Origin: Ectocarpus siliculosus
Taxonomy: Eukaryota > Sar > Phaeophyceae > Ectocarpales > Ectocarpaceae
Reading direction: 5' to 3'
DNA: 64,000 nucleotides
Assembly: GCA_000310025.1 (NCBI GenBank)
Contig: FN649751.1
Location: 5,624,150 to 5,688,149 of the forward strand
Position 1 is the first letter of the stretch; every line of letters begins with the position of its first letter. The position numbers were made by a program, and so were the translations under genes. Below the pieces are notes generated by a model. That model was not told where the DNA came from, ran no database searches, and saw only the letters and a program-made list of their open reading frames with translations. Shown piece by piece: positions 14,311 to 43,939 of the stretch.

Positions 14311-17300
14311 ATGGACCAACGCCTTGCCGAGGAGGATTCTGTGTGGGACGACGACGTGGCTGAGGAAGGAACAGTAATAGTAGGAATTGGAGACGAAGCA
14401 ACGCCAGCTGACCATGATACGGTGAGTTGTGTTTGGTTCGTGTGAGGTTGCCTGCGGAGATTCCAAGTGCTCGAGCGGCCAGCTCACGTTCGACGGCAAG
14501 CATGCATACGAGGCAATGCTAGATACCGCTGCGTGTAGCCCAGCTCGTAGGAACCGTGACAAGGCGGGGGTGCACACGTGCACACCTTCTGTTGTGGCAC
14601 CATCGTGTTGAGAACGGGCAACAGAGCAGGTACGTACCTTACATGATAACGCAAATCCATTTTCTGTGCATATCGTGATAACTAGAGCATCCACCATAGT
14701 CTACAGCAGTGTCGACACATGCATCCGATCTGGGACGGTTGGGAATATATCCTGACCCAGGCAAGACCATTACGGTTCTACAGCAGAGCAATGCAACCCA
14801 TAAGGCGCAGCTGCCACTGTAAGGACCTCAGCATACCCCTCGTGAGTCCCGTTTCGGTGGGCAGTTCCCGTTCATGTGATGTAACCTTCTTCCCATGAAA
14901 GCGAACTGTTTTCGCCTCGAGTAGGATACAAGAGGATGCAGAGCCGAAGAATCGTGTAAAGGTGAACAAACAACAACAGCAATACAGCACGCACCGATGC
15001 AATTGGAACGGAGTGGGGAGCGATGATCACTTGCTTCGGGATGTACACAGTAGGTGTCAACGACGGTCGAAAAGCCGACCCCCCCCCTCCCTTGCCAGGT
15101 GTCATGCGAACGAGGAGGTCAACGTTCCGCTATCGAGGTATTTTGCAATGAGCTTTTCGGAGTGGATTCTGCTTTCGATTTCGCCACTCCGCACGGAGCA
15201 CGAGAAGGGAGCATGGCTGTCAGTCGCCAGAGAGGTGCCAAGAATCCAACGCTCATGCCGGGTTTTGCAGGGTTCACAAGTGTCTACCCGCGTCTCCGGC
15301 AGGCGTTGGTACAAGGATGGCGACGGGCCGCCACCACAGGAGAACGGGTGGAGAGTGCGTGTCAGGAGAAGCAAGGTGACGCGAGCTCTCGTCAGGCCGA
15401 CAGCGGCCAGATGAGCGATGATCCTCCGCAAGCTGTTGGGAATCCCGTCCCACCGACCCCCTCCGAGGTTCTTACGGCGAGCTCTGTTCGAATGATGCTG
15501 AGTATGGCCTCGGCATTGAGGACGACCAATCCGGAAGCGCTACAGGTCATATGCAGCACGCTGTTTGATTTGCTGCTGGAGACACCGCCGCTCGTGCTAG
15601 CACCGCTCCGTCAATCGCCGTCGTCCGTCGAGGCAACCACCTTCCGGAAGGTCGGCGAATTTTGTGCGGAGCTACTTGGGTCAGCAAATCACGCGGAACA
15701 CCAACCGGCGCTTCGGCTGTACTTAGCTCTGGCTGTCAGCAAAGGCGAGGTCAGCGGCTTGCTGGAAGTCGTGAACTGTTTCTTGGACCGGGCACGTCTT
15801 GACGCGAAGGATGGTGGGACACCAGCACTGTTGCATTTTCCTGGTGGTGCACCGCCTTCGTCTACCGTTGCTGCTAATGACACTGCGAAGCCTGAGCGAG
15901 GCCAGTGCAGAGACCGAGACGCGGGGGTTTCGGCTGTGCTTGAGAGACTAGCGAACCAACGTGTACATGTTGACCCGCCGTTCCCCAGTTCCCGTGACGA
16001 TGGGCCGTTTGGGTGGAAAGAGGTGCTACGGAACCTGGTGGACGACTCTGAACGTGCTCTGAAGGGTAGTGCATCACGGTACTGCATTCCTCCTCTGCGC
16101 GAGACTGCGGTATTTGTGCTTGCACATCTCGATCGACTGGGTGCCCACTACTACTTGGGCTGTAAGGGCGAACGGGCACAAGCAGGGGAGGTGGGGTCCC
16201 CCATCCCATCTCTTCAGAAGCGAGGCTTGGACGTCCCCTTCTGCTTCGACCTGGCCCCGGAAACGTTCAGACATCTGGTTGATCTCGTGGAGAGATCTTC
16301 AGGGTCTATTGAAAAGGCTGTCCATGGAGAGGACGACGACAGGGAGGAAAATACCATAGCAGTGTCAGACGGATATCTGGAATTGTACGTGTTGTCTGCA
16401 TCCCTCCGCCTTCTGAACGTCAACATTGGAACTCTCCTCGGCAGTGGATTAGGAGTCGAGGAATTCGGGGGCGAGGGTTTGCGAAGATCTCTCCTTCGGT
16501 GCTTGCTAGGTCTTGTCAGGCATTGCAAACCCCGTTGGACTCGGGCCGACTTCTCGTCCAGACCGAAAAGCATACCCCATACTGCCGGCCAGGTAGGGCG
16601 AGGAAAAGTGGCCGAGGAAGCTCTGCGACTCTTGGTGGACGGAATGGATCTGTTTTACCCGTCACAGGGACTCCAGGCCAGCTTGCTCTCTTCGTATCTG
16701 CGTGCGTTTGGGACCAGTAGCGAGTCTCATTCGACGGCATCGCATGCGCTGGTGCTAGAGCTGCTGTGTCGTACGTCTGCTCCAGAATGGCTCCGAAGCT
16801 TTCTACCTGAGCGGAGGCATCCAACACCACCCTCTGGAACGTCAGCGTGCGGAGAACTCTTGTTGGGACCCGGGCTCGAGTCTTGCGAGGAATCCCCGCG
16901 CAGTCATGAAACCCTCGACAGCTTTGCCAAGGTCCTTCTGGAGTCGTCAAGCGCGCACGCCGTCAAAGAAGTGCGGCATGCGGCCGGGATGATGTCTGTG
17001 GGATGCGACTCTGCACCCGGAGCGGAGAGGGTGTTGATGAGCGACAAGTTGAGAGAATCTTCGAAGGAAGTGGGGCAGGCTGTCCTGCGAGCTTTGGACG
17101 CTGTGCTGAATCTACGGTGCGTCGACGCGTTCCAAGCGACCAAGGAAGGGCGTGTGGAAGACGTCGACTCAACCGCGGACATCCGAAAGTTCTTGTTGCT
17201 GGTGCTACAGGCATCCAGCAACGTCCTTGCCGCCGCCATCGAGGCGCGGTGTTGCGCGACGGCAGCCGATGTGTTCGAGAGGGTGGTTGAAGCGGTTTGC

Positions 17301-20300: not shown

Positions 20301-23300
20301 GATATGAGCCTCCTTCGTGCTATCGCGGGTAGCAAAGTTTCTCTTGAAGGTGGAAGAGATAGGAGAGATATCGCCATTTTTTCAGATGTCAATACATGTT
20401 GATTGGAACTACCTTGTGAAGGCACTGCATTAGTCAGTGAAAGGTGCCCAACCTGTTACTATGTGCGTGCGCAATCCGCCGTCCAAGATCTCTCACACGA
20501 GCCTCAGCTGTTATTCACAGTCATCCCCCCCACCCTATGGTGCCCTCTTGCCTTCAAGTTATTGTTTCAAGTCTGGTCTAACCCGCAGCTGCTGCAAAAA
20601 CTGGGTGTGATAGGCCAGCCGCCCACAGAAGTCCTTGCGCTTGGTCCTCTACTTTTTCCCACCGACAGGTCTATCGTTCGTGAGCGCCAGCCTTCCTTTG
20701 AAGGGTCGTTCGTCGAATGTGCTCTTTTCCTCGTAGGCCAGATTGCCGGAGTCTGGACAACGCTTGAAGGCGGTGCGTCTGAAATCCATAGCGACCCCCC
20801 TGCATCGCCTCCAACGGCAGACAAAGGATGTGTGCTGGACATGCTCCTGGCACCCGCCGGATTTCGAGCGTGGCGGGAACGGGTTCCCGCGAGAGATGCG
20901 TTCAGGTTTGTTGGTCGGAAAAAGACTGGAGAACATCTCGATGCTGCCAATGTTTTTACGATCCAATGAAGCTTCCGGGTCTAGGAGGTTCGAAGGCATA
21001 TGGGCGGGCAATATTGAATAGGAGATCGACGCAGGATACGCTAGTCACCGGCTGCGTGCGTGTGCACACGCAAAGGAAGACGTGTTCAAGGACTGTTTTC
21101 CTACATATGCGTATTTTTCCATCTCGAGAAACCGTGTTGAATCTGCTCGCAAATGGGCACCACCATCCTGACGAGGCGTACGCTTACCCACTGCACAACA
21201 ACCTTGCTTGGGGTGTGAGTGTGGGTTCGGGATAGGGTTTAGGGATGGGTTAGGCCTAGCGAGGCCTAGCGCCGTGGTGTAGCTTGAGGGCTGGAAACCT
21301 GCTAGTGGCTTTGGTTTCGGGTCTGCCTCCAACCATAACTCAAAAACTGTTGAACTGGCGAGTGCAAAAAGGTCGCCAGCTTTGGTGTATGTACGCGCAT
21401 CCCCACGATCAAATGGGTCGGAAGCAGCATAACCTCAAGGTACCCATTCTTGTACCCTTCTCTCTTATGTGCACACACCCCGCGCACAGTTTGTCTTCCG
21501 AGCTGGTGTCTCTTGTGCATGAGCTGGCCGCGGGGGCAGATACAAAGGGAGGTGAGAGCGCGGGGAAGAGGCCGTCGGACTATTTACCGGCGTGGCAAGA
21601 GGAAGTCGCCACGTTTGTCTGTCGGTGCCTGCAGCGGGCGGGTCCCATCGTGGAATCGCTTCAAAAACACAAAATGCTGGAGGAGACGAGACTCTGGGCG
21701 GAGGCGGCAAGAGCTCGTGGGCAACTTGGTGTCAACCGTGAAGGTTCCACCAGCGCTGCTGTGATCGAAGGGGGGGATGAGGCGGAGCCAGCGCCGCCAT
21801 CTGCTGACGACGTCGACCGTCTCGTGGCGGTACTCTGCCTGCTCGGCGGCCAGTTTGAGGGCTTGTACCCGGGGGGCAGGGTACTCTGTCGCTTGCCCCC
21901 TGGAGAGAGCTCTTCCGAGGTCCCCGGCGGGTGGGAAGACAGGCCAACAGTAGAGGCGACCGTGTTACGGCTCCCGTTCTCTGGAACGAAGTCGCCTGGT
22001 GGCAACAGCAAGCCCGTTGGAGACCTACCTGCGGATGAGACGACATCCGCGGACGGTGGTAGTGGTGATGGGGCCGGGAGCAGCGGGGTCGAGAGCGCAG
22101 AAGGGCAGCGGCATATGGCGAGTCGAGTGTTCTCGGCGCGATTGTTGCCGCGCCCGGCAGGTTGCACTCGGCCGCTGGACGTCTACGAGGGACTCGCCGA
22201 TGAGGGGTTTTCCAGGGACGCGGAGGCGTCGACAGCCGTCGCGAGGCCGGTGCACGAACAGCGACGGCTGGAGCGGCAGGAGCGACTGATGCAGGAGCAT
22301 CGAGCCCTTTCGCTGCGTATGCAGGGTGGAAGGTTCGGCAGAGTTTCCCGTCCACATGGTCAAGGCAGGATAAACGTAGGGGGGGAGCAACCTCTGCCCA
22401 TCGTGGGGCAATCACTGCTCTTGTCAAGGAGAGGAAGGGGGGAGGAAGGCATGGCGACGACGGACAACCCTGCCGGCGGTGGTAGCGTCTCTGCGTCGGC
22501 TTCTCACAGGAGGCAGCAGCCAGTCAGCGCCTGCGAGGAGTTGGTTACCGTGGGCTTTTCGCGAGATGACCGAGGAGTCGCACCCGCTCCCCGCGCGTTT
22601 ACTGTTCCTGCCGATAGCGTGACCCTGGTGCACAAAGGGGTGCCAGGAGCGCTCGTGAGGACGCTGACCTCGTACGCTCTGGAGTTCCTCCCTGGGCTGA
22701 AGGCTATGCTGGAAGCTGAAACGACGTTTCGGGGTGCGTGTACACTGCGGAGCGTGCCACCGTTCGTATGTGAAGGCACGGGTTTCAAGGAGAGCCGGTT
22801 GCTAGACAAATGCTTGAAAAAACCCGATCACGAGATCATCACTGGCCGTTACTAGGATGGCCATCGACTTCTGTTTTAGGCATACATCCATCTGTCTCTG
22901 CAACCCCCCCGGCAGCGTTTTCTCGGGTTTTGAATTAGCTGTCAAGCGTTATTGTGGTCACCCTCCAATACAATTCTTATGCTGGCTTGCGCAGGGCCGA
23001 CGTATGCACCATTGCAGAGCGCCTCGAGCCGTGCGTGTACCGTCGAGTCCGCGCACCCGTACCAACCAGGCGAGGACCACATGTGGCCTATCTCCGTAGC
23101 AGGCGCGGAGACCGTCGAGGTGGGTGGGTCCACGGTGCAGCCAGCCACGAACGACAGGGCTGACGATGTGGTGGACAGGATTGGAGATGCACTCTTAGAT
23201 AGTACGACCCTTTTCGGAACGAGCGGCGGTCGGGTACAACTGGTTAGATGGGGTGTCATGTTTTCGCGGTGGGGTGTCATGGTTTCGCCAACAATTTTTC

Positions 23301-26019
23301 CATTTGCCATGCATTGACCCGATCGATTATCAGTTTTCCGTATATCCCTACGCTTCGGATCCAAGAATCTCTCCTCGGCCCCGTCTTCGCTGTGCTCCAA
23401 CCCGCCTCGGTCGTCAGCTATCTTTTGACCCGATGTCGCGCGTCGCCCGCCCGGAGGACCACATCGCTCTCAGCTGGCGGACGCCGTCCGGAGGCAGCGG
23501 CCACCGTCGAGTCTGCCCGTGCTCCCCAGCAAACCACAGCAGTGGCCGCGGGGGTCCCAGACCCTGCGAGGACGACGACGGGGGAAGCCAAGCCTGGCCG
23601 GGGGTCGGAGTGGAACCTCCTCTGTTGGTGATGGCGGGAGAATTGACTGTGCGGTTCGTAACTGACATCGCCCTTGACCCCACTTCGGCTGAAGCGGGAG
23701 CTGCCTCTGGAGGGGGGGACGATGAGACGTCGGGGGCACGACCGACGGCGACGCGGGCATGGGGTTTTCGTCTGACAGCCGTAAGCCCAAAGGTGCGGTT
23801 TTCGCAATCCCTGCAGTGATCAGACTGCACGTGAAGCCTGCCTCGTCCGTCGTTGCGGCATAGAAGGAATGGTCGAGAAGGGCGATGTTTCCAACGCCTC
23901 TTTCGACATCATATCGTTTAATTGACCCCCCTTAATCGTACAACACCAATCTCGTATATTTCTCCTAGGTGTCGCCGAAAACGCCGCGGCCTCAACCACC
24001 ATCGAAAGCGCGGGCAACCTTGTGCGACCTTCGCGCCCGTGCGTCCTTGGGTTTGGCGTCGCTCCTGGAGCACGGTGAAATGTCCGCAAGACTCGCCCCT
24101 GTGTTGCCGGTCTTGGTGAAGGCTGCCCTTGGAGCTGCCTCAGAGGTGAGAGGGTTGTTGTGGTGCTGTCGTGTGCCCTCTGCTACCCTTGTGTGCGGAG
24201 GACACAGCCGCCGCCAGTCACCAAAGAAAGGATCCTCCCCTCGGTTTTGGCTGGAACATCATGCAGAACGGCTTGTTTTCTTCCAGTTGATGGTTTAGTC
24301 TCTACCCTTCCCCTACCCCGGCGCCTCGCTGCATTGCTTGCGCTGCTCACACCGCAGCAACACACCCTTGCTCTTAACTTTACGATACCCGTTGCGTGCC
24401 ATGGGGGATCAAGGTGGCGATCGGTGGCGATATTCCCGGCGCCGGGACTCCACAGCCGTGGCTGGAACGTCGACTGGCTCGTGCTTATGACCTCCTTCAC
24501 AGGCAGGCGAGTCACATCTCGTCAAAGTCGACACCTTCTCGCTGTGCACACACACGCCTTCTTTTTCGCACACATACCCATCAAGGAGTGCCTTGCGCGG
24601 ACTGCAGTTGTACGAAAACGGGGTTGTACTCGCACACTTTCCTAAAGCTGAACTAGGAGGTTAAATTTCTTTTTTTGTCTTTTTTCGGACGACTGCTGCA
24701 TCGCTGGCCGTATGCTGCAGACACCCGGGGCATGCGAAAGAGTAGAAGACCGAGCGAATGGTAATCACAGAGTGCATGGCATGCAACCAGGCGCGTGTGC
24801 CGCATTGACAAGGGTATGCACTTTCTACATGTAAGGGATAGAACTACGATGTTACGTCCCTTTTTTCATTTTTGCTGGTGGGTGGTAGTTGGATGACCGC
24901 GATGCCCGTCTCCTATTTTGCTGCCGCTCAATACCACCGTCCCCGTGTTATCCCAGCGCGGACCTCCATCGAGGTTACCGGAAGCCGATTTCGTCCAGTT
25001 TCCCTACAGCATCGGCGCCACCCCTCCGCCGCAAAGGGATACCTTGGGCGAAAGCTCCACTGCTGTGGCCACTAGCGCCGATCGCCTCGTCACTTCGCCG
25101 TCTACGGATTCCTGTTCGTCGGGATCGACCGCTCCAGAAGCCGGATATGTGGGGGGGGCACTACCTCTCGAACAATTCAGCAGCACCGCAGTCGGATTGT
25201 GCTCGGACTATCCATGGCCCAGGTGGGACAAAGAATCGAGGTGCATGCACTTGAAGCACTTTCGGCGTGCCGAGCATATTCTTCTCTGGTTCGCACACTC
25301 CTTTGTTGTCCATCTTACAACCCTGTTAGCCCTCACAACATACGAATCATTTCTTGTCCGTCTTGCAACCCTGTTATTTATTCCTCCTGAAATATAATGG
25401 GGCCGTGTTTTGTTGATGGTAGTGTTGATTTCGGGTGCTATTGTCTTCCCCGATGAAGATGCTCAACATCTCCCTCGATGCCGTTAGTGCTATATTTGTC
25501 TATTGTGCCAGTGTTTGATTGCTGCTGCTGTACATATGTGCGTGGTGATCCTGGTGGCAGGCGCTACGTCGTGTGCATTGGCGGCGTCGCAGCTTTCGAC
25601 AAGCCGAAACTGGCCAACGGTGACGGGTCGAGTTCGCGGCAGTTGGCACGGCTGAGGCACGGAGCAACTGTGGCAGTGGTGGCGCAGCAACGAGATTGGC
25701 TGAAGGTATGATCTCGCGTTGAAAAAATCGCGCGCATTTCGACAGGCGTCCAACAACCAGAGATTGTTTTGATGTAGTCAGCGAGTTACGAAGCTACACG
25801 GGGCTTGTCATCGCCAGAAACAAAGTCTGGTTGCTTGATTAGGTGTGTATGTGGAAAGTTGTCTGCTGTTGGTGTGCTGGGAAAACGAAAAACGGCCTCT
25901 GGATGCCTCGACACCAGGACGAATGTTGGTGACATTACAATACGACGGCTTACATATTTAAGTGGCTTCAACACGCGTATGTCCCACCATCGCCTTTCTC
26001 CCTCGCTACTCACCCCGAC

Positions 26020-26083
<64 letters not shown>

Positions 26084-28064: not shown

Positions 28065-28111
<47 letters not shown>

Positions 28112-31100: not shown

Positions 31101-34100
31101 CTCACGAAGTCCAAAGCCGTGCGCGCTCTGCCACTGGACCCTCAATACCAGGCGGGGTTGTAGCTGCAGGAGCCGCGGCGCCACCGCGAGTCGATGGCGG
31201 CTTGTCGCCGATGGAAGGCACAAGACTTGTCTCCCCGCCCGCATCGTCGCCTGGCAACGCTCATGTTGGGGTGAAAGAAGTGGACCAGCACGGGGCCGAC
31301 GAAGTGGGTCGGGGAGGGGCGGGGTGGGAGCGGGTCCGCCTTGAGAAGGGGTTAACGTCGGCGAGCGGTGCCGTCAACGGCTTCGCAGACGGTGGGTTAC
31401 CGCAGCCCTTGCTGCCAAGCGGTGGAACTGGTGCAGGTGATAACGAGCGAGGGGACGAGGAGAAAACAGACAGATACGCGTGCGGAGAAGAGTCAATTTT
31501 TGTCGAAGGTGACGACGGGATCGAGGAGAGTGAGGACGACGAGAACGACTGCGAGGTAAGCGAAGATGGGCGAATTGGCCGAGCGACGGCTGCTGCTAGC
31601 AGGGTGTTTCGGGGATGGCGCTCTTTGGCGCGTAGCTCACGCTGGTGCTTTTGCACGAGTTTTGAGAACGTCGTGTGTACGAGCTGTTATACATGTAGGA
31701 ATTGCCGCACAACACCTGGACGGGCATCAAGCAATCGAGAAGAAACAGGAACAACGCTGCCCCCGCTCCCCGCCGCCCTTCCGGGTCTTTAGGTGCGCGA
31801 GGATAACGGCCGTGCCAACAGCTACGAGGCCGATGACAATGGGAAGTTAAGCCTAAGCTTCGAAGACGCTGTGCCGAGTGCCCCGCAGGATGTTGTCATC
31901 TCCAGCGTCACGGACAGCAGCATCAAAATGAGTTGGTCCCCCCCAACTCGTGTTGGCCGCCCAGCGCTCCACAGGTGTATTACCTGTCAAAGGCGGTGGA
32001 TGTCTTCGAGTGTATTTGTTCGCACATGTTGGATTTGTTCTGATTCTCGTTCGTTCTCGATGCTGGCTGTTGTTGAGGTTCCTCGCTTGGATGACAAGGA
32101 AGCTTGTGTGTTTTCTGCTATTGGTAGTACAGCTCTACCTGGATGGCTTTGACCTGTTCTCCCCTTGCCATGTGATGCCTTGGTACTTCTGGCAAGCTGT
32201 GCTTATATCCTACCCTGTTTTGAAAGTTTCCCCGACTTGATCTCGCCGGCTGCCTGTGATGGTTGGCTCTTGCCTGCTCGTACTGACACGACACAGCTAT
32301 ATCATCTGCCTTGATGATGTGGAGATTGCCTCTGTGGGTGCTGACACGCTGGAGTTCTCCAACACCAACCGTCCACCGGGGTCGTTGTGCACCTACAGGT
32401 GAACTGCTGTATGTGGTGTGTCGTTCATCCTCGAGTCAGTGTCATTCCCCTTTATTTCCCTCTTTGACAAGTCTGGGCGTATTTTCAACCCAACAGTCGC
32501 TTAGGCACCTCCAGTTAGTGCTGTGTGGCGTTCGTCGGCACCTCATATCCTGTTTTCCACACACCCCCCCTCCCGTTCCGCAGCGTGGCCGCTCGTGGGG
32601 CAGCGGGTACGAGCCCCTGCTGTGCACCGGTTGTAGCGGGCACAACCACAGAGGACGACACGAGAACGCAACTGGCGCTTTGGGTAGGGGGTCGGGGCGA
32701 GATAGAATTTTCCATGGAGAACGAGCGCGGGAAGGGTGTTCTCCTCGGAGCAGGACAGTTTCGGGAGGGCATGTGGACGCACATGGCCGTTTCCGTGGAA
32801 GGCCGTAGGGTAGGTTCTCTGCGCGCAAAGACCGTTCGCGGTGCGGCGCCCTCAGCACTTGACTGAAACGCGGAAACGACATACACATTCCGTTTACGGT
32901 TTTTCAGCTGTTTTAACCCGTGGCGTTTGGTTTCTTGTGCAGAACTCAACAACGTCGCTTTACGGTACGAAGCAAGGGACGCCGTTTCTTCACAGTTTTC
33001 TTTGTTCTCCGGCGGGATACTGTGCTTTAGGTGTCGTGGGCTTGCTGGTGGAATCACGTGGCTCCTCCGATATTGGAGGCTTCCATCCCGCACCCCCTTT
33101 TCTTGCCGTGTGGAAGCCCTTTTATCGTGCTGGCATCACCCCCCACTTTTCTCCTTCCCCCGGTTTCCCCTCCGTCCTAGGTTTCGATGTTTGTCGACGG
33201 CGAGCGTCGAGCATCCGGCACGTTTGTGGGCCACCGGCTCTTCTCCGGCTCTCCATCTCTCTCTGCCTACGACCACCAACACCAACACCAGCATCGTCGG
33301 CCGAGCGCAGAACCTCTACGCCTGGGAAGCAGAGGCGCGCAAGACTTCTGGCGTGGCCGCCTTTGCGGGATGAGGGTGTGGGGCGCAGCGTCACAAGCCT
33401 TGGACATAAGACGGAGATTTTCCTCCCTTCCCTCGGCGAGCTTTGTCCGTCCTGCACCGCCGTCTTCCTTTGGCGTCGAAGTTCCTGGCACCCAAAAAAC
33501 GATTTGCAGGCTCCGGTTGCACGCTCCCTTGCCGGACCCGTCGGATGGTGAGGTATACCTTACGCCGCCAGGGGCTCCTGTGCGTGATCGGGAAAGGAAA
33601 GCCTACTACGAGGTCCGTTACTTGCAGGGTGTGTGTCGATCCAAGGGAGAGGCCCCTGTTCGTACTCTAGGCGGATGTGGTACGTACTAGTTTTCAGCGT
33701 TTGTGTATGGGAAAATGCTTCTGCGTGGACCAGCTGTTTCTAGGCAGAGTTGCTGTGTTGGCTGCACCCGAAACCTGTGCGGGAAGTAAACCATGTGTGG
33801 TTGACCTACCGCCCGTCTCGTACTCTGCGTACATTGGTTGATGTGTCTTTGCAGCCCGACAGCTACTTGTTTCTGCAGCGCATATATCGTACGAGGATCA
33901 CCCTGCCTTGAACCGGGGAGGTTCACATATCTCCTGTTCTTCACAGCTCGGGCGGCAGCACCTTTTTACCGGCCGCTCCCTTCCTGTCGACCCGCCCCTC
34001 CCGCTTTAGGTGGTCCTACGATCCGGCGGGTGCATGCAGATTGGCTGGGCGCTCCCCTCTTCCTGCCCTTCCTCTCACATCCTAGCGGTGGGCGCCGACG

Positions 34101-37100
34101 ACAAGAGCTGGGCTGTTGATGGCAAACGGTCCGCCAAGTGGCACGGCAACGTCTTGCCGGCTCCTTCTCCCGCCTACGCGCATGGTGTGCCGCACGGGGC
34201 GGACTGGGAGTGGGCAGCAGGGGACACGATTGGCTGTGCTGTCGATCTCGACGAGGGGGTAATGTCGTTCAGGTGAGAGCGCGGGAGTACTCTCTCTCCA
34301 GGGAGACGAAGCTGTCGGTGGTGGTGCAAAGGTGCTCAGCGGGCGCTTGAGTCCGGGGGGGCACTACTCTGAGAACATGCCTAGCTCTGGGAACTTTGTC
34401 AGCTCCAACCTTTTTGAACGATTACGTAGACGAACGACAGCGGCAGTGTAGTCTCTATGGAAATCGTGATGCAAAGTTCTGCTTATTTTTTCTGATGAAT
34501 AGTGGACTGCAATTCCAAGAAATTGTTTCAATAATCTTCAATGATACGGTCTCTCTGCATATTGTCATCTCCCCTCCTTCCCACTGACCCGTCAAAACCA
34601 ACCGGTGGTCGAATCTTCCCTCAGCCACAACGGACGAAACCTGGGAGAGGCATTCAACCGCGCAACCACAGGCCGTGGTGTCGGTCGATACCGAGTCATC
34701 GCACCCCGCGGCGTCGAGTGCCGACTTGGTGTCGACGAACAGTCTCCAGTGGTTGAAACTTACCCCGCAGGAACCGTGCTGCAAGTCTCCCGACTCGAAC
34801 GATTATCAAGAGGGGGACGCTTGCGCTTGCGCACAGCCGCGGGTTGGGTTGCCGAGAGGGATGTTGATGATCCGGACGACTTCCACTTGGAGCGTCTAGA
34901 GCGAGATACGAGCGACTCTGCCGACTACGGTACCGGTCCCGAGCGCTGCGTATTTGTGGACGTGCTAAGAAGTGCTTCTGAGTCGGCGGCGCCTGGGAGA
35001 GGCAGAGAGGGCTGCCTCCGGCCCGTCACGCCTCTCCACGAGTGCAAGGACATTGCCGTCGGAGAGGGTTGGTCCGACGTGGTTGCTACCCCGGAGGGTT
35101 CGGCAGATGGATGCTTGGTGACCGCCGCACATACCCAAGACGCGACGCCAGGCAAGGGCCAGCCGCCACCAACGCGGAGCTTGCTCACGAGAGGCGTGAA
35201 CGTCGGGACCGCGGACGTGGCGACCTTCTTCATCGAACTCTTCGTGCCGGCTTGCGAGCCCGCCGCCACCGACGCTTTTGACGGAGGAAGATGGGCATGG
35301 GGTGTGGTCTTGGCTGACTTCAACGCCTATCTCACGACCCAGTGCAGGGCGACCAGCACCACGCGGGATGGCGGCGGCGGCGGCGGCGGCGGCAGCTCTG
35401 GCGACGAAACGGTTGCACCGGGGCATGAGGTCGCTTTAGATGGTGACAAGGACCGCCGCCAGAGCACTGCTGGAGGGTCGCTGCACGTCGTTGTCGACGG
35501 CCCGGGCGGCGTCTTCCACGCCATACCCGTGTGCTCGGCGTTCCGGGGGCGGTGGATGAACATGAGGATAGTGGCCCACAGGTCGGGAGAGTCCTTGCTC
35601 GTTTGCACTCCAGGTGCCGAACAGCCCCACGACCACCAGCAAGCCACCGATAGCGATGCCACCAGCGCGATACCCCGGGATCACGAAGACGCGTCGGTTT
35701 CGACGTCGACCAAGGCAGGGGCTGGACACCAGCAGCATAGACTCAGGTGCGGATTTTCAAACCCTCGGTTTTTTCGAGGAGAACGCTTGGGGAGTATCGG
35801 TCTCTACAGCGAGCGGAGCCAGGGCGACGGCGTTGGTGGCTATCCCTTCCTGGCGAGACATGCCGCTATTCTCTTGGGTTCGTTGGAACATCAGCCCCCG
35901 CCGGCGTTGCAACGCCTCAGGGATCTGGAACGCCTCGTGTCGGCGGCACACCGTCGACGGATGGAGGAGCCCACGGCTCGTCCGTCGCTCGTCTTGGCAC
36001 GGCAGCGGCTGCGCCAGATTTGGTCGGGAGAGGTCCCGCCGCCCGTACCTCATTCTACCACCGCAGGCATCACCACCGAGGTTGGAGCTTCCGCTGCCAC
36101 CGCGAATGGATTTCCGCCGCAAGGGAGGACAACCACTCACTCGACGCTGATAGTGCGGCACCCTTTGCTCTCCCCGGGGCGAGTTGCTCTCGGCACCACG
36201 GTTTCTCTCTCCCGGAACTGTACTGGAACCACCACACCACGCCCCACCCACGGAAATGATGGCGATGTCGGGCCGGCGCAAAGGCGGTCTGTCACGGCGT
36301 GGGAGCACCCTGGGCTGCAAACGCCCGCGAGGTTCGAGCCGGTGCCGCTGCCGGCTGGGTTGTCAACGCGGACGGTGGCTGGCGGACGAGGGTTGTGGGC
36401 GTGGGCCCCCGTGCCGCGGTCGGAGGCGTTCTTGGCGATGGGCTTGGTGTTTACGGCGGAACCGGAGCCGCCGTCGTTGACGGACGTGCGCTGCGCGCGG
36501 AAGGAGCTTGTGGTCAACGCCCAGCCACACAAATGCAAGGTGAGATGGACTTTTTTTGTATTGTTCCGTGTATATATCATGTGGCAAAGTGGCGTTTTGG
36601 CAACACTTGATTGCTCTGAATACGTGTTCGCGATGTTGGTGGATGATGTTAACATCAGGTTCGATGGCTACGAGTCGCGTTTGGGCAACGTTCAACAGGC
36701 TGGAGGTAACCTTGCGAGGCGCGCACCGATCATCTACCGTTGAAAATAAGTCGTGCTCGGTTTCGAACGACCCAAGACAAATTTCCCTCTCCCGCCGTTC
36801 CTACCCGCTACCGTCGCTACTCAGGCCGTGACGCTGCAGCGAACGACGGAGCAACCAGGCGAACAACGCGGTGTCGAAGACACTGACCAATGCTGCGAGG
36901 AAATCATCATCGTGGAGGAAATGGGGGTGTGCGTCCCCAAGAACGGGTCGGCATGGGGCCTGTCCCCGCGTGTTGTTCTCGGAGACACGGGCACCAATCT
37001 CGGCCGGCGCCAGCCCCGGTGGGACGGCCTCATGCCCTCGATCAGCGGGACGGCAGGACAAGGAATGGTGGTAAATATCGGGCATCTACCCTTCCGCTAC

Positions 37101-40100
37101 CCGATGAACGGCTATGCTCCCGTGTCGCAGGTGGCTCACGCCGACGCACGTTTCGTGCTGCAAGTCTACGACGACGCAAATAGAATGTGGCAGGACGTTC
37201 GGCCTAGGTAAGCAAGACCCGACAGTCATTTTTTTTTATTGCTGTGAAAAATCGTGATGAGGTCATCACGTAGTGATAGGCGCGTACAGGGATGTTAGTT
37301 TTCAGGAGTAAGATTATTTATTTTTGACCACCCGAATGAATTTAGGATTCAACGAGGGAAGTAATGATTTACGCCCCAATGCCTTCTCGGCTCGTTTGTC
37401 ACAACTCCCACCAATCCAACGCTGCGACTCGTTACTTGGTGGCTGCTCCCTGTGTGGCGTTTATCGGTTTTCAGCCACGGCTTGATGGACGGAAGAGCGC
37501 CACCGCGCGCGCCAGAGCTGATCGGCAGCTGGTCGCTTTGCGCTCGCACCAGTGCCACGGACACCGCAGACGGCAGATATCTCGCAAACGACGTCTTCGT
37601 CGAATTCGCAGCCCACACGCCGCCGCCATCCGCCCACAACAGCAGCGGTGGTGACGGCAAGTTGGTGAGGTTGCCGCCAGCCCGGGCCGGCGGCACTCTG
37701 GAGGCTGCGGCGCCTGGGGGGCCGCCGATGCCGAAAGAGGAGCAAGAGGTATGGGGTTTGAGCTTGACGGTTAGCCCGCTGTTCCCTTCGGAGTTTGCCG
37801 ACGCGCACCCTTGGATCGGACAGCGGTTTGAGACGTTCGCGGCTCTCGTGTGGGGAGAGCAAGGGCAAGCGCTTGCTTCGAACGCGGAGTTGGTCAGGTA
37901 AGGCTTGGTGGCGTTGTTCCGTGGTCGTATGATCACCATTTCTCGCAGACTCACGCCGCCGCCGCCGCGACAAGAATCGCAGAAACAAGTTTAGTCCAAC
38001 GCGTTCCAGTAATTACGTTGTTGCTGTAGGCGTGTCGAGCACGCTATTCTCGACTTATTGCGCTAAATATGTGCAAACCCTAGATTCAGAGCAGACTTGC
38101 CGCCGCATGCATATCCTGCGAGGTCAATCAACGCGGCCGCTGCAACACAAGTAAGGCCTCGAGATTCTTTGGCTCTACTTCGCCCACTCCCTCTCCCCCC
38201 GCCCCTGCTCACCGTGATGCCGGCTTTTAACTCAGGTATGTAAATGCCGTTGCATCACGGAAGGGGCTATCGAAGGAGGCGCTGCTCACCTGCGACTGGG
38301 CGGCGTTGCAGCCCCCCGGCACAGACCTCGCAGACTGGCCGCTGCTGCAGTCAATGGCGGCGTCGCGAACGGCGGCAACGGTGGCTACAGCCTATGTCGT
38401 TTCCCCAAGGCCTTCTTCCGGCGACGGAGGAGGAGGCGTGGAGGAGACGAAGCAAAGCGACCCGCCCGGAGGTGCCCGTCAAGGCGTCGTCGCCGCTATG
38501 GACGACAACGACGGGCGGTACGACGAGTGGGTAGTGGCGAAGGCCGTCGCCTCCGGCCCGGAGAGGAGGGGCGTGAGGGTAAGGAAAACGCCTGTCGAGT
38601 ACGGGAATGTGTTGTGGCGTCTCCCGTCCGGACAAGCGGCGCGACTTCTGCCGCCGCTGCCGCCGCCGCCGCCGGGAGGACGGGGGACAAGCGAGAGCTC
38701 GACGGGCGGGGCAGGGTGGAGACGTGTTCGCGGCGCGGGGGGTGACACGGGGTGGCTGCCCATTACCTCTATAGACGCCACGGGGTCCCCGGTACCGTCT
38801 CCGCTTGAACGCGTCTGGGCGCGTAGGTTCATCCTGGATTGGTTCTCTCCGGAGGCGGCGGGATGGCCAAGAGGCGAGGAAGGCGACAACGAGGGCGGGT
38901 TGGAAGCGCGTGCAGCAGCATCAAGCCTTGACGTTAAGGAAGGTGCGTTTTGGCTCCCGTTGAGGAGACGAGCCTCCGCGCCGGCGGCAGGCGGCGACGA
39001 CGGCGCCGCCGTGAGGAGTCATTCCCCGATTTCCGCCGCACGTCTCCTGGGGAACAGCGACGCCCTCTTGTTGAGCGCGGTCGATGCTGGGGGCGGCGAC
39101 GACAGAGGAACCTTGCTCGTCACAGGGAAGTGGACAGTTGGGTTGGTGACGGACATGCTCACCGTCACGACAAGGACAAGCGGTTGCACGAGGATAGAAG
39201 TTCCGCCTGTCGCACGGGACGGCAGCGCTAGCAGCGTCGGGGGAAAGGCGGAACAGACGGCAGACCCCTTGCCCGTGCTCGTCGATGGGCTCGTCTTCGG
39301 CTTCCGGGCGGTGGATGGCCTCCTCGTTGTAACCCGGGCGTTTCCGACGGCCACCGGGGAGGGAACGCTGCAATACGGGCAGCGCGTGGAGCAACAGGCC
39401 TTAGCGTGGCTGGGAGGGCTAGACGAGGGGGCGGAGGTTTCTTTCTCGATTGTCGACAGCGGCCAAGATGTCGTGTTCAGCTGCAGAGAGGTCGGCGCAC
39501 CCCGACGGACGGCCACGGTCCGAACGAAGTGTAGGGACACGTGGGGCCGTGGGCGGGTGGCCCTCGGATGTCGAAGTGTGAAGACAGAGTCCTCCACCAG
39601 CGGGTGGGTCCGCGTGACGAGCCAGGCACACGGCGCCACGGTACGTTCCGGCAGGAGCATCGACGCCGACGGGGTAGTGGGTCGAATCCCCTGCGGGACG
39701 GTGGTACCCTTCGACAGCGCGGTCTTGTACCACTCTCCCGGGGCTCCAGATCGCGTCGGCATCGAACCGGTGATTCGTTACCGGTGCTTGGCGACTGCAA
39801 CGACGCCGGCGGGCTGGATCAGCGAGCGGGGAAGGTAAGCGCAGCCACCATTTTCTTGGAAGACCCATATCCGCAGACCACTGCTTGTAGTATCACAGAG
39901 ACCTCAACAGTCATATTTTGTTCTCGCATTGATCACTCTCCCTCCCTGCTTTTCGTCTCCGTCCGTAGGTACGCCAATCACCCGTATCGCATCTGTGAGC
40001 AGATTCTCGCACGGCCGCAGCAAACCCCCGCGTCCATCTCGCACGTCTCGGTTGCAAGAGTTCAATCACCGGCATCCTTTGTTGGTGGGGACACTCTAGC

Positions 40101-43100
40101 GGGACGGAGCAGTTTTTTCCGGGACCAACCGCTGCCGCCGGTCCGGAAGGCAGGGAATGCCGGCAGCACGGCGGAGGAAACCCCTGGCGAGGAAGACCAG
40201 CAGCGCCGGGAGTCAGAGTGGCAGCAACGCCTCGGTGAGCTAGCGGTGCTACCGACCAGGTTCCACCTGCTCCAGCAACTAAACCGAGGCGTGTCGAAAG
40301 TGCTGAGGTATGTCGACCTCTCGCAGGGAGACCTGCCGTGGTCGGTGGCCAGGCTGCTCTCCCGCTGCCGCCACCTGGTTTTCTTTGCCCTCAGGCAGGA
40401 GGCGTGGCAGGCCGAGCTCGCGAGAACGTCGCGACCGCCGGCGGCGGCGGCGGTGGCGCACTCAAGCGGGGAGGCGACGCCGCCGTCCTTGGAACTCCGG
40501 CTCAGCCGCGGCCGAGCTGCTCGGCACGCGGGGTTGGGCACGCTCCGGGCCGACCAGAAGGGGCGGCAGACCTTGTTCTGCCAGGCCTTTTTCTCGTTGA
40601 GGAATACGGAAGAGTCGTTGTTCCGGCTACGGCCGGGAGAAGTGCTCTACAGTACGGTTTTCGTCGGAGAACATGCGCACGATGCGGGAGGTACGTCGTT
40701 GGTTAGTCGCAGCACGTGCTGTTTGCCTTGAGGTGATGGATCTTTTTTGGATTGTGGTGCGTATCTGCGTGAGCAGGTCTGCGTGTCTGCTTGGTTTACG
40801 CGTGTTTGTTCGCTTCGTGTGACGGCCTTGTTGTTCGCTTCCGGAGGCTACACGAAGGCCGCCGCGCATTCCTAGTTTTGTTCGAATACCCCACCCCGAC
40901 AACCGTCTCGATGTTCATCACGTTGCTGCAGCAGGCGCAAAGCCGTGTGTTTTATACCCCCGCTTGATGCTTCCCGCCCTCCCTCCAGAACAAAGTGTGA
41001 CGGTTGCCCGGGAGCGCCACTTCGCGACCTCGACAATAAAACCTATCCAAGCAGCATGCATCGCACACGCTCTCGAATGTGTTTCCCTCTGCCCCGGTCC
41101 TCTTGTCTCTCGTCTAGGCCCGTACCGCGAGTCCTTCGCGGAGTATTGCGCCGAGCTTCAGTCTGGTGCGCTGCCGTTGCTGATCAAGTGTCCCAACTCG
41201 GTGAACGACGTCGGCATCAACCGTGAGAAGTGGCTCCCGAACCCGGCCATCGGCAAGGTAGGCCCCAGCGCGGCGCTGCACGCCGAGATGCTGGGTTTCC
41301 TCGGCCGTTTGATGGGCGTCGCAATTCGCTCTCAGGAGCCGCTCGACCTGGACCTGCCTTCGATAGTCTGGAAGCAGCTCGTGCGCTCGCCGATCACCAG
41401 GTAAAACAAATCCGGCGCTGGTGCATGACGATGGCAGGCTCGGGCGATACCGATGGAAAACTTTTAGCCCTTGAGGAGAAAGGAGCACAACGGCTGGGAA
41501 AGTACGTTCCGACAATCAACGGCAAGCGCCGCCGTGACGCGGAGCCCCGTCAACACATAAAACCCGTCTACCAAGCCTCTGACACTGACTGATGCCCCTC
41601 TCGCCACGTGCGTGGCCTTCGCCCCTCGAACCTCTCCAACCGCACAGGGACGACCTAGAGGCGGTCGATTTCGCGCTGACTCAAAGCCTTAAGGCCGTCC
41701 GCAACATCCACCTGCGAGGAGTTGCAACAGACGAGGCTTTCAGAGACCTGGGGCTCGGCGGGTTCGAGGTCGCCACCGCGGACGGCGGGAGGGCGGGGCT
41801 GCCGACTCCCGGTGGGGCGGCGCGGGAGGTGACCCTGGACAACCGCCTGGAGTTCGCCGATATGGCGGAGGAGTTCAAGATGCGAGAGTATCGGGTGCCG
41901 GTAAGGACAGCGTCGTGTGTTGGTGGTGTTGATGGCTGCTGTTGTTGCTCTGTTACGGCTTCTCTTGTCGGTATGTAACATGCGGGGTCCCGCGTTTTGG
42001 CTTTATGCTTTTTCGCGTGTTCAATTGTCTTACCTGTTTCGAGGTGCACTATCTCGTACAATTGATGTTGTACTTGTACGTTGCTAGCGTGTGCCCGATG
42101 ATTCCTTTCACAGAGTTCTCGCCTCTCGTTTTCTTCTGCCTTGATGATTGTGCACGCACGTGAAGGTGGAGGCCATCCGTCGCGGCCTGGCTTCCGTGGT
42201 CCCCATCGAGCACCTCAGGCTGTTCTCGTGGGACGAGCTGGAGGTGTTCGTGTGCGGCCGCAAGGAGGTGGACGTGGACCTCCTGGAGGCCTGCACGGAG
42301 TACACCCTGTGCTGCCGGCAGGATTCTCACGTGTCGGCCTTCTGGGACGTGCTCCGGTCCTTCTCGCCGAGGGAGAAGTCGCTCTTCCTCAGGTACCGTT
42401 GTGCGCCGCAGTCGTCGTTGTCGTCGTCGTAGCGCTGTGCGAACGGGTATGCCGCAGAAACGTTCGCGCTCGCTCGGTTACCGGGGTGCCTTGTTTACTA
42501 AAGAGCGGAAACCGTGCCCGGTCCCGTTTTGGAGTCACCGCGTGGTGGCTGTATACCGTACCATCCGGTGCCGCTAAGTGCGAAAATGGTGGCATACGAT
42601 GCCGAGCGCTGCCTCAGAAGGGTTCCCATGTCGTCGCGATGGGTAGTTCAACTGGTTACGCCTGCTTCCAGAGGTTTCCTAGAGTCTCTACCACCAGCAA
42701 TGGCGTTGCACCGCATGAAGTACTATACGCCAAATAGTATCAAAAGGACGGGCCCAGTACGGCGCCGGCCGCCGGGTCACATCGACCATCGTGTGTTGGC
42801 GGGCAGTCAAAATAAGTCGCCTCTGCAAAAAAAAATTCTTTTTGCATCGCAGGTTCGCGTGGGGGCGATCGCGCCTACCGCTCAGCGCGGACCAGTTCCA
42901 CCAGGCCTTCAAGATCCAGGCCTTCGCCCGCACTCCCGCGGACGCCTACCTGCCCGTGGCGCACACATGCTTCTTCAGCTTGGAGTTGCCCCGTTACAGC
43001 AGCCGAGAGGTAGGATGAAGTGTGGATCACTTCGATACGCCTGGTTTGTCGTGTCTGTCGATGGTACGCAGGTAGTGAAGCTTTTTTTGTTCAGTTTTGT

Positions 43101-43939
43101 GATACGTCGATGTATTCAAGACTGTTTACGGCCTTGTTGAACGCGTGGTGCAGTGGGTTGCAATTGGGTTGGCGCAAGTTAACGTCCGGTGAACTGAAGG
43201 CGAATAAACGGTGGCGTGGGGTGAATACTGTAGAACGGTGAGATCGACCATTGAGGGTTGAAACCGGGAAAACATAGGGTGGAAGTAGGGTGGAATGTGG
43301 TCAAGATAGGGTCAAGATGATGCCAAACCAAAGAACGTTCGGGGTCCAAAGTCGCCGTCAACCCGATTGCAACCTCGATTCACCCGATTTCGACATGTAT
43401 TGACCCGGGTTAAAATTTTGTGTTGATCCAACCAGGCCAACATCGCTTAGTCCAACCACTGGCAATCCAGATGTAGCCCTCTGTCAGCGCAATTTTACCC
43501 TGATCTCAACCTCGGTTGTCTTGATTTCACCCTCTCGCAGTTGATGCATGTGTGTCAACCCCCCTCTCTTAAATTAATAANNNNNNNNNNNNNNNNNNNN
43601 NNNNNNNNNNNNNNNNNNNNNNNNNNNNNNNNNNNNNNNNNNNNNNNNNNNNNNNNNNNNNNNNNNNNNNNNNNNNNNNNGTTACGCCCCCCCCCCCCCC
43701 CCCCATACGGTCAAAGGATTTCGGCATGCAGGACTATGAGTACCCCCCCCCCCCCCCCATACGCTAATTTGTTGCTTGCCCATGTCACGACGCGGTCCGC
43801 TGCCCGCACCGGACGCCAATCTTGTCAGGTCTTAGAGACAAAGCTTAGGTACGCAATCTCCAACTGCCGCGCGATGGACGCGGACGATACGAGCGTCGGG
43901 CGAACGGCTGCTGGCCTAGGTTGGGGCGGGGATCCGTGA
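14311..43939 (+). CDS. HECTD4-like: giant HECT-type E3 ubiquitin ligase, about 32 exons
   Basis: The start is ATG 14311 (MDQRLAEEDSVW) and the stop is TGA 43937-43939. Exons I could fix with matching phases: 14311-14421, 14707-14841, 15099-~17600 (GC donor AAG|GCAAGC likely), ~17987-20106, one or two small exons around 20264-20905 (last end 20905), 21490-22733, 22995-23119, 23418-23780, 23969-24145, 24957-25222, 25561-25705, 26104-26421, 26951-27067, ~27518-27745, 28123-28317, 28709-31555, 31793-31974, 32297-32398, 32584-32809, 33181-33630, 34010-34272, 34625-36539, 36825-37207, 37475-37897, 38236-39834, 39969-40690, 41118-41400, 41648-41900, 42166-42392, 42853-43009 and 43829-43939. The sum is roughly 18.7 kb of coding sequence, about 6,200 residues. 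Domains in order are listed as separate entries. The enzyme takes ubiquitin from an E2 onto a catalytic Cys and passes it to substrates; the many beta-domains presumably bind substrates. The order (CUB-like, LamG, SPRY, C-terminal HECT) recalls metazoan HECTD4/HERC1-type giants; orthology is inferred. The last intron contains an N gap. Confidence 0.93.
15099..22733 (+). other. N-terminal helical (solenoid-like) region of the HECT ligase
   Basis: Three large exons encode about 2,000 residues rich in Leu/Ala helices, for example SVRMMLSMASALRTTNPEAL, TLFDLLLETPPLVLAPL and LLVDGMDLFYPSQGLQASLL. The spacing resembles armadillo/HEAT-type repeats, as is usual in giant HECT ligases; the repeats are too divergent to count by eye. 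Low-complexity Gly/Ser/Glu spacers interrupt them. Near 21800-21900 is a compact motif (VLCLLGGQFEGLYPGGRV) that may open a small beta-domain. The 3' limit of the first of these exons and the small exons around 20264-20588 are uncertain. Confidence 0.6.
22995..23780 (+). other. CUB-like beta repeat 1 of the HECT ligase
   Basis: The exons at 22995-23119 and 23418-23780 join to read VESAHPYQPGEDHMWPI, AGAETVELSFDPMSR and, after a long insert, WGFRLTA. The pattern S-x-HPY...hydrophobic strand...FDP.S..E/D...W.FR.TA recurs at 28285-29020 and partly at 29939-30105, so this is an internally repeated beta-sandwich module. Similar HPY/FDP modules occur in other large ubiquitin ligases and ZZ/EF-hand proteins; the name CUB-like is descriptive. 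Confidence 0.6.
26023..26103 (+). repeat. (CT)n microsatellite acting as polypyrimidine tract
   Basis: About 58 bases of uninterrupted CT (26023-26080) followed by CT-rich sequence end directly in CCCAG at the acceptor of the exon starting 26104. The acceptor is certain because the downstream frame (VIYDSKAVFTP) is phase 0 with the previous exon. Confidence 0.8.
28065..28122 (+). repeat. (CT)n microsatellite upstream of a HECT-ligase acceptor
   Basis: About 44 bases of CT with one TT interruption precede, by 14 bases, the acceptor GATAG at 28122. The exon starting 28123 (GDLQSAAFSTLKQHVGE) is coding. This is the second intron of the same gene whose polypyrimidine tract is a CT microsatellite. 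Confidence 0.75.
28285..29020 (+). other. CUB-like beta repeat 2 of the HECT ligase
   Basis: The exon end at 28317 reads ETPHPYQNNM; the next exon opens at 28709 with NVEWDVYLPEAKRIKVVFDP and RTETSCDWVDIILQDP, closing at DWGVRFTAYG near 29010. It matches repeat 1 position by position (HPY, FDP.S, D.I.L, WG.R.TA). The intron splits the module at the same place as in repeat 1, between HPY and FDP, though at a different residue. Confidence 0.7.
29939..30105 (+). other. degenerate CUB-like repeat 3 of the HECT ligase
   Basis: Within the 2.85-kb exon, MLTEACSVIVQSAHPFDRLA, VGVQVRFDHRTEMRQDDRI and VIRDP repeat the module with HPF for HPY and FDH for FDP. The closing WG.R.TA strand is not obvious. 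The exon then enters a Gly/Ala-rich stretch encoded by GCC repeats (about 30520-30540). Confidence 0.5.
30742..33410 (+). other. LamG/concanavalin-like domain interrupted by a fibronectin-III module
   Basis: The first half, near 30745-30860, reads LFRFDGESTHVDLPSYRGMR and DFTLEVWAWLDL. An acidic linker (ESEDDENDCE) ends the exon at 31555. Exons 31793-31974 and 32297-32398 encode a fibronectin-III fold: VPSAPQDVVISSVTDSSIKM, SWSPP, YIICLDDVEIASVGADTLEF and PPGSLCTY. Exons 32584-32809 and 33181 onward return to LamG: TQLALWVGGRGEIEFSMENE, GMWTHMAVSVEGRR, MFVDGERRASGTFVG and FWRGRLCGMRVWGAA. All junctions keep phase. The LamG strand order is complete only if the halves are put together, so the FN3 module sits inside the fold. 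Confidence 0.75.
33560..34690 (+). other. SPRY/B30.2 domain of the HECT ligase
   Basis: Three exons contribute: AYYEVRYLQ at the end of 33181-33630; CMQIGWA, AVGADDKSWAVDGKRSAKWH and GDTIGCAVDLDEGVMSF in 34010-34272; and SHNGRNLGEAF at the start of the exon beginning 34625. These are the standard SPRY signatures (YYEV, Q.GW, GDDK.SW..DG, GD.IG...D.......SF, NG..LG.AF). SPRY domains bind protein partners, here probably substrates. Confidence 0.88.
36270..36539 (+). other. VPS62/VPS13-VAB-like segment of the HECT ligase
   Basis: The end of the 1.9-kb exon reads RFEPVPLPAG, then WAWAPVPRSEAFLAMG, AEPEPPSLTDVRCARKELV. The pattern W.PVP..gy..lG.v....PPs...vRCvrk.lv is characteristic of VPS62/DUF946 and VPS13 VAB-type beta repeats. 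Its presence in a HECT ligase is unusual to me. The call rests on one motif. Confidence 0.5.
39969..43939 (+). other. HECT catalytic domain
   Basis: Six exons. N-lobe: GRQTLFCQAFFSL, VFVGEHAHDAGGPYRESFAE (split by intron 40691-41117), LIKCPNSVNDVGINREKWLP, FLGRLMGVAIRSQEPLDLDL. Hinge and C-lobe: VDFALTQSLKAVRNI, LVIPIEHL-like SVVPIEHLRLFSWDELEVFV, CGRKEVDVDLLEACTEY, FWDVLRSFSPREKSLFLRFA, WGRSRLP, then AYLPVAHTCFFSLELPRYSS with the catalytic Cys codon TGC at 42968-42970. The last exon at 43829 closes with VLETKLRYAISNCRAMDADD, the normal HECT tail, plus about 17 extra residues. The domain is intact: GPYRE, WGRSRLP and THTCF-type motifs are all present. Confidence 0.95.
43581..43680. other. 100-N assembly gap inside the last HECT-ligase intron
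   Basis: Exactly 100 N. It lies in the intron 43010-43828. On its right are two C-runs (43687-43704 and 43743-43758), each flanked by TAC on the left and ATACG on the right, so a repeated C-tract probably broke the assembly. Confidence 0.95.

Follow-up and report, generated by a model that had tools for sequence, protein, structure and literature searches.

According to a passage of a 2019 review, no HECT-containing proteins are larger than the human Large HERCs, at ~5,000 aa (amino acids); the review also places the emergence of HERC1 in Metazoa (PMC6692442). In the domain listing of another paper, HERC1 is given with SPRY and WD40 and HERC2 with MIB and DOC (PMC6457168, Table 1), and an excerpt of the same source has HECTD3 as DOC plus HECT and HECTD4 with HECT alone (PMC6457168); the HECT domain of HECTD4 spans residues 3627-3996 in one section of a further report (PMC9547173). 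A portion of a classification of animal HECT ligases joins KIAA0614 (HECTD4), HECTD3 and the Large HERCs (PMC2837046), and an extract of work on Trypanosoma cruzi counts 16 putative HECT proteins, the longest of 4,423 aa, and its list of domains for them as a whole includes SPRY, ARM and Laminin G3 (PMC5976635). In the present study, we analysed a stretch of 64,000 nucleotides (nt) of Ectocarpus siliculosus (assembly GCA_000310025.1, contig FN649751.1, positions 5,624,150 to 5,688,149 of the forward strand; hereafter the window), in which a first-pass annotation had read positions 14311..43939 as one gene for a giant HECT ligase. We consider this reading very probably right: the continuous phase, the domains that continue from one exon into the next and a colinear relative elsewhere in the genome all argue for a single, intact-looking gene for a HECT-type E3 ubiquitin ligase of ~6,100 aa.

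Our hand-curated model of the whole coding gene (14311..43939, + strand) comprises 30 exons, with a coding sequence of 18,360 nt and a product of 6,119 aa; the first-pass annotation, with ~32 exons and ~6,200 residues, was close, but not exact. The model stays in phase from ATG 14311 to TGA 43939, both as first annotated, with its sole stop at the very end, and all 29 introns are GT-AG, as the search design imposed, with a median length of 352 nt. Between 14 and 44 kb, long open frames on the + strand are broken by stretches without coding signal, and the GC content is higher than in the flanks; no tRNA gene was found within the 64-kb window, and Rfam gave no match over threshold there.

The gene finder was a semi-Markov program with a 3-periodic order-4 coding model that considered only GT-AG introns. 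It was trained on the long open reading frames of the window and on those of other loci around HECT matches, with the window flanks and some introns as the non-coding set, and its splice matrices were re-estimated from its own output. Because it was trained partly on the window, it is not independent of the one-gene claim. Run without hints, it returned one gene, at 14311-43018, for start penalties of 5, 10 and 15 nats alike; at penalty 15 this gene scored 1,335 nats, whereas the same stretch read in reverse scored 106 and the four flank strands 0, 0, 7 and 18. The flanks had served as the non-coding training set, which leaves the reverse strand as the one fair control. A first model with a weak codon table, which broke the gene at 20969/21467 and read the HECT C-lobe in a wrong frame, was superseded by the better coding model.

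Hand curation then used splice candidates and domain continuity. It added exons 24957-25222 and 25561-25705, an SH3-like motif being completed from 26104 onward, shifted exon 6 to 22995-23119, which completed CUB-like module 1, and added 32297-32398, which completed an FN3-like piece; it also placed the join 33612/34010 at the SPRY start and exon 42166-42392 in the HECT C-lobe, and added the last exon, 43829-43939. CUB-like modules 1 and 2, the first SH3-like piece, FN3, Laminin G, SPRY and HECT are each completed only across exon joins. The weak spots of the model are donor 17640, exon 26849-27075, acceptor 42166 (AAG, score -1.8) and acceptor 43829 (score 0.1), and a candidate 60-nt in-frame intron at 37071-37130 was kept as exon.

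The HECT domain with its C-terminal tail lies at 40564..43936 (+), at the C-terminal end of the protein, and is complete and intact, as previously held (PF00632, E=8.9e-61, profile positions 35-304 of 306). Its catalytic Cys is aa 6070, encoded by the TGC codon at 42968-42970 that the first-pass annotation had named; it sits in the motif HTCFF, which aligns with HTCF of pub2, E6AP and HUWE1 and with STCS of HECTD3. By this complete C-terminal domain and its C-lobe Cys, the product is a predicted HECT-type E3 ubiquitin ligase. The best PDB chain for the domain was HECTD3 (149 bits, residues 30-367 of the 384-residue query; next chain 103 bits). A HECT tree of seven rows separated the window, two further loci of the same genome (C127 and C1, named for their contigs) and HECTD3 from pub2, E6AP and HUWE1 with support 100/99, and paired the window with C127 at 89/93; several of its rows are partial, and HECTD3 alone stands for the supergroup, with pub2, E6AP and HUWE1 standing for the rest. 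On sequence grounds, we assign the domain to the HECTD3 / Large HERC / HECTD4 supergroup, the grouping with HECTD3 being computed here and the remainder taken from the published classification. Our Pfam scan covered ten protein pieces (exons 1, 4 and 12 not included), and APC10/DOC, the criterion for the HECTD3 subfamily, had no match in these pieces.

A search of the genome (189.5 Mb, 492 contigs) for HECT domains yielded 15 matches. Six of them fall in the window; the other nine include C127 (71% identity for 301-351), C1 (45%, 100-367) and C2 (48%, 210-367). The close HECT domain at C2:623567-624046 (48% identity, or 50% over 149 residues) has surroundings that are mostly N in the fetched pieces. 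The C127 domain is 53% identical to that of the window over 290 columns, and it belongs to a relative of the window gene, divergent but colinear, on the minus strand (C127:2906-51325), which extends over at least 48 kb, vs 29.6 kb for the window gene. We compared 62.9 kb of C127 sequence by chains of high-scoring segment pairs (HSPs) and by six-frame searches; a gene-finder model of C127 (89 exons, 4,539 aa) was poor and was set aside. With the whole window protein as query, tblastn returned 46 HSPs on one strand, 26 of them in a single colinear chain over aa 416-6083 (887 bits), and 9 on the other strand, where the best chain reached 95 bits. Restricted to aa 1-2090, the chain reached 227, while the opposite strand gave 119 and the reversed protein 85 and 87. 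Twelve of 30 module queries matched C127 in order and on the right strand at E<0.05, spanning ~48 kb: aa 541-573, 1028-1075 and 1360-1420, CUB-like modules 1 and 2, aa 2910-2932, MIB, both Laminin G halves, a block that we call RYVNA, a pre-HECT block and HECT. The N-terminal window pieces alone matched in order, too (E 0.0005, 0.003 and 0.006; in the larger set 0.0013, 0.0077 and 0.015). When aa 361-590 of the window and their C1 counterpart were combined into a profile, C127 was found at E=1.9e-6 over 39 positions and the runner-up locus at 0.55; by itself, the C1 piece, homologous to that N-terminal stretch, matched the same C127 frame (E 0.0068). The composition of C127 is like that of the other pieces (GC 0.539, vs ~0.53-0.56 across the pieces read; tetranucleotide correlation r of 0.93 with the window and 0.95 with C1), but the contig could still be of foreign origin.

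The relative also bears on the 3' end of the gene. C127 has a tail exon with the same first residue and phase and a CAG acceptor (VMKERLLFAAFNCSAID vs VLETKLRYAISNCRAMD), and the two tail exons end alike (AAALGW in C127 vs AAGLGW in the window). This match supports both acceptor 43829 and the intronic position of the 100-N gap at 43581-43680, which had rightly been placed ahead of the last exon. Beside the gap, the last intron (43010..43828, +) holds two C16 tracts, identical copies of C16-CATACG at 43689-43763 that lie 54 bases apart, adjoin the Ns and are a possible cause of the assembly gap. An intron tried at 40308-40394 was rejected and the segment read as exon, because C127 encodes the homologous stretch.

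Along the protein, all on the + strand, the N-terminal region comes first (exons 2-4, aa 38-1669; 15099..20905), with three stretches matched in order in C127 and one of them also in the C1 gene; Pfam matched nothing in exons 2, 3 and 5, and a PDB sequence search with exon 2 gave no match. The solenoid-like fold that the first-pass annotation proposed for the N-terminus is thus a conjecture. Exon 5 (aa 1670-2084; 21490..22733) links this region to CUB-like module 1 (aa 2097-2250; exons 22995-23119 and 23418-23792), for which no Pfam CUB match was reported and which was recognised by eye from its motif and matched in C127 at E=0.004. An SH3-like piece over the join 25705/26104, followed by an acidic stretch, occupies 25561..26421; the Pfam match to the piece, SH3_3 at E=0.0084, falls short of the cut-off. 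CUB-like module 2 (aa 2731-2848; 28273..29017), over the join 28317/28709, is the only one of the three with a Pfam CUB-type match (CUB_M02D8_5_3rd at E=9e-4 and CUB at 0.063, neither reaching the cut-off), modules 1 and 3 being assigned from the motif by eye and from C127; its own C127 match has E=6e-6. In the PDB, module 2 gave a weak match to neuropilin-2 (E=0.022), and the predicted fold of its exon-15 part (111 residues) was beta-rich, with a pLDDT (predicted local distance difference test) score of 54.5, too weak for use. A genome search with this module found, outside the window, only C127 (E=0.056) and contig C13 (E=0.27). CUB-like module 3 (29954..30103) is a first half only, seen by eye, and its best C127 match (E=0.011) falls where an earlier CUB-like module lies.

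Next comes a MIB_HERC2-like domain (aa 3269-3391; 30278..30646; PF06701 E=1.6e-4, below cut-off; C127 E=0.0018), followed by a Laminin G domain (30752..33423) in two halves, 30752-30898 and 32660-33423, of which the second is matched by Laminin_G_3 over cut-off (E=1.4e-12) and which match C127 at E=0.028 and 0.0012, respectively. The halves are ~340 residues apart, and between them sits the FN3-like domain (31868..32650; exons 31793-31974, 32297-32398 and 32584-32809; fn3 at E=3.2e-4 over profile positions 1-38 of 84, short of the cut-off), the second half of which was assigned by eye from splice sites. On C127, the first-half Laminin G match ends at 48541 and the second-half match begins near 49250, ~0.7 kb apart, with no FN3 detected. 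The SPRY domain (33604..34673; exons 33181-33612, 34010-34272 and 34625-36539) is over cut-off (PF00622 E=1.5e-15) and is matched in C1 at E=1e-5. A Vps62-like stretch of ~50 residues follows (36405..36842; PF06101 E=1.6e-4, 20.6 bits vs a cut-off of 22.1). A Vps62 search of the genome did not list this weak stretch; it returned a single match, at C472:542676-542855 (E=3.1e-5, over cut-off). The RYVNA block (aa 4965-5045; 37782..38362; C127 E=5.7e-7), a ~580-residue stretch with SH3-like pieces (38363..40236; SH3_4 E=0.005, below cut-off) and the pre-HECT block (aa 5630-5735; 40249..40566), drawn from C127 homology and with no useful match in a PDB search, lead to the HECT domain. Of the architecture first proposed, SPRY, Laminin_G_3 and HECT thus exceed the Pfam cut-offs, whereas the fn3, CUB and Vps62 matches stay below them. 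Its CUB-like and Laminin G stretches are matched in C127, where the module queries at E<0.05 did not detect SPRY, FN3, the Vps62-like and SH3-like pieces or aa 5046-5545.

The second giant HECT locus, C1:2251018-2268000, carries on one strand seven RCC1 repeats, Laminin_G_3, zf-Di19, a UBA-like domain, fn3 (below cut-off), SPRY and HECT; its RCC1-SPRY-HECT order is the plan of HERC1. The locus also contains a stretch homologous to window aa 371-573. Three of the 30 window modules match it at E<0.05, window aa 301-900 gave two colinear pieces in its frame (E ~1e-4 each), and its HECT domain, too, has HECTD3 as best PDB match (142.7 bits vs 103.8). One could then suppose that the window gene is a true Large HERC, namely a HERC1 orthologue minus its RCC1-like domains, which would be compatible with a single gene and which we regard as rather unlikely. 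SPRY followed by HECT is indeed the order listed for HERC1, and C1 does join RCC1 repeats, the homologue of aa 371-573, Laminin G, fn3, SPRY and HECT on one strand. However, none of the at least 51 RCC1 matches of a genome search (135 candidates scored) lies in the window or on C127, and in the ten scanned pieces of the window protein (exons 1, 4 and 12 not among them) no RCC1 match appeared even with E allowed up to 1. Because no RCC1 repeat was found, we do not call the gene a HERC. Moreover, C127 has CUB-like, MIB and Laminin G matches but no detected SPRY, so SPRY may have been gained rather than retained in the window gene.

Several observations weigh against a single gene. With a start penalty of 2 nats the gene finder splits the gene at 41560/41592, and with none it splits there and at 24298/25214. 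Forced cuts without penalty cost 4-5 nats at 20.5-21.3 kb and nothing at 24.5-24.9 kb; at 21.7-22.5 kb and 28.5 kb they cost 34-42 nats. Coding scores alone leave a split into two genes possible. The exons were partly hand-picked for domain continuity, so the evidence from continuity is not fully independent. On C127, 17 of the 30 module queries had no match at E<0.05, including aa 1-370, 600-884 and 1591-2084, and the donor of the last intron is not GT at the homologous place, where GC stands, the nearest GT being 15 bases on and also in phase 0. In a shuffle test of the chained N-terminal matches (40 shuffles per comparison), the shuffle maximum was exceeded for C127 aa 1-2090 (285.6 vs 268.4) and for C1 aa 1-1590 (275.6 vs 241.6), but only narrowly for C127 aa 1-1590 (239.0 vs 235.8), and the chain for C1 aa 1-2090 stayed below it (219.5 vs 270.6). 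When the whole protein is chained on C1, the top chain (359 bits, vs 134 for the opposite strand) includes several chance-like pieces and none from the N-terminal region.

Such observations could point to two neighbouring genes, the first coding for an N-terminal protein and reaching from 14.3 kb to ~20.9 or 24.3 kb, the second coding for a CUB-LamG-SPRY-HECT ligase and starting at ~21.5 or 25.2 kb. The unpenalised split at 24298/25214, the cheap cuts at 20.5-21.3 kb and free ones at 24.5-24.9 kb, the break of the first naive model at 20969/21467 and a join region (aa 1591-2084) without convincing C127 match are all in its favour. Nevertheless, we think it improbable, because the colinear, divergent relative on C127 keeps the order from the N-terminal region to HECT, and one N-terminal stretch lies upstream of SPRY and HECT on C1 as well; if the genes were separate, their order and neighbourhood would need to have been kept on both contigs at such divergence. 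In addition, CUB-like module 1 (22995-23792) and the SH3-like piece at 25561-26112 flank the cut at ~24.5 kb and are in phase with each other. As for a recently decayed gene, or a mis-assembly in which the N gap joins unrelated pieces, the 100-N gap in the last intron with two C16 tracts beside it and the weak acceptor 42166 might suggest it, but it is scarcely credible for a model of 18,360 nt without in-frame stop, with an intact HECT domain and an exon past the gap that matches the C127 tail exon in phase.

Outside the giant gene, the window holds a + strand open frame with an ankyrin repeat match (6572-7228; PF00023 E=5.3e-6), a second one with a partial FAD/NAD(P)-binding match (61672-62409, +; Pyr_redox_2 E=4.5e-9), and a tandem array of 2.6 copies with a period of 139 bp (10752-11106).

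Taken as a single ligase, the protein would be expected to work as HECT biochemistry suggests: the N-lobe would receive ubiquitin from an E2, Cys6070 would take it as a thioester, and the C-lobe would pass it to a substrate lysine. The ~5,700 residues ahead of HECT may form a scaffold, with a long N-terminal region and then recognition modules (CUB-like, MIB_HERC2-like, Laminin G with FN3, SPRY, SH3-like and Vps62-like) that would choose or position substrates and partners.

Judged from these alignments, the comparison of the three loci suggests a core of N-terminal region, Laminin G, pre-HECT block and HECT, to which SPRY, FN3, Vps62-like, SH3-like and RCC1 modules are possible additions; loss in C127 is an equally possible explanation. 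We would also raise, tentatively and with more doubt than conviction, the thought that the giant HECT genes of the window, C127 and the RCC1-bearing C1 locus are shuffled descendants of one ancient ligase with N-terminal scaffold, Laminin G and HECT. The plans of HERC1, HECTD4 and HECTD3 would then be pre-animal, and the window gene a mosaic that links them. The comparison of core and additions allows a test, outside animals, of how old the Large HERC, HECTD3 and HECTD4 plans are. On the practical side, the window gene is a warning that automatic annotation may split genes of such size.

Among the relatives, C127 is like the window gene in its colinear N-terminal stretches, CUB-like modules, MIB, Laminin G halves, RYVNA and pre-HECT blocks, HECT and tail exon, and differs in SPRY, FN3, the Vps62-like and SH3-like pieces and aa 5046-5545, which went undetected there. 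HECTD3 (PDB 9r85, 864-residue chain) is the best PDB match, falls on the same side of the tree and has a similar '..KLRYA..NC.A.D.D' end; it is, however, far shorter and reads TCSS at the catalytic Cys, vs TCFF in the window protein. With the Large HERCs, the window protein, which is longer than human HERC1 and HERC2 (~5,000 aa), shares giant size, the HECT supergroup, SPRY (HERC1) and MIB (HERC2); in contrast, it has no RCC1-like domain that we found, and has CUB-like, Laminin G, FN3-like, Vps62-like and SH3-like parts that are absent from the domain listing. HECTD4 (KIAA0614), compared by description only, is likewise a giant HECT ligase of that supergroup in the portion of the classification cited (PMC2837046). 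The first-pass annotation had called the architecture very large and unusual, which is fair as to size; yet T. cruzi HECT proteins of up to 4,423 aa, in a set with SPRY and Laminin G3, were already published, although the extract does not list CUB, MIB_HERC2 or Vps62 and does not state whether the listed domains share one protein (PMC5976635). In the restricted collection searched, we found nothing that pairs HECT with Vps62 or Ectocarpus with a HECT domain, and nothing on an oomycete or stramenopile HECT protein with SPRY. Still larger HECT proteins occur in apicomplexans, and the window gene stands, in its size and its mix of modules, at the extreme of an already known kind of protein.

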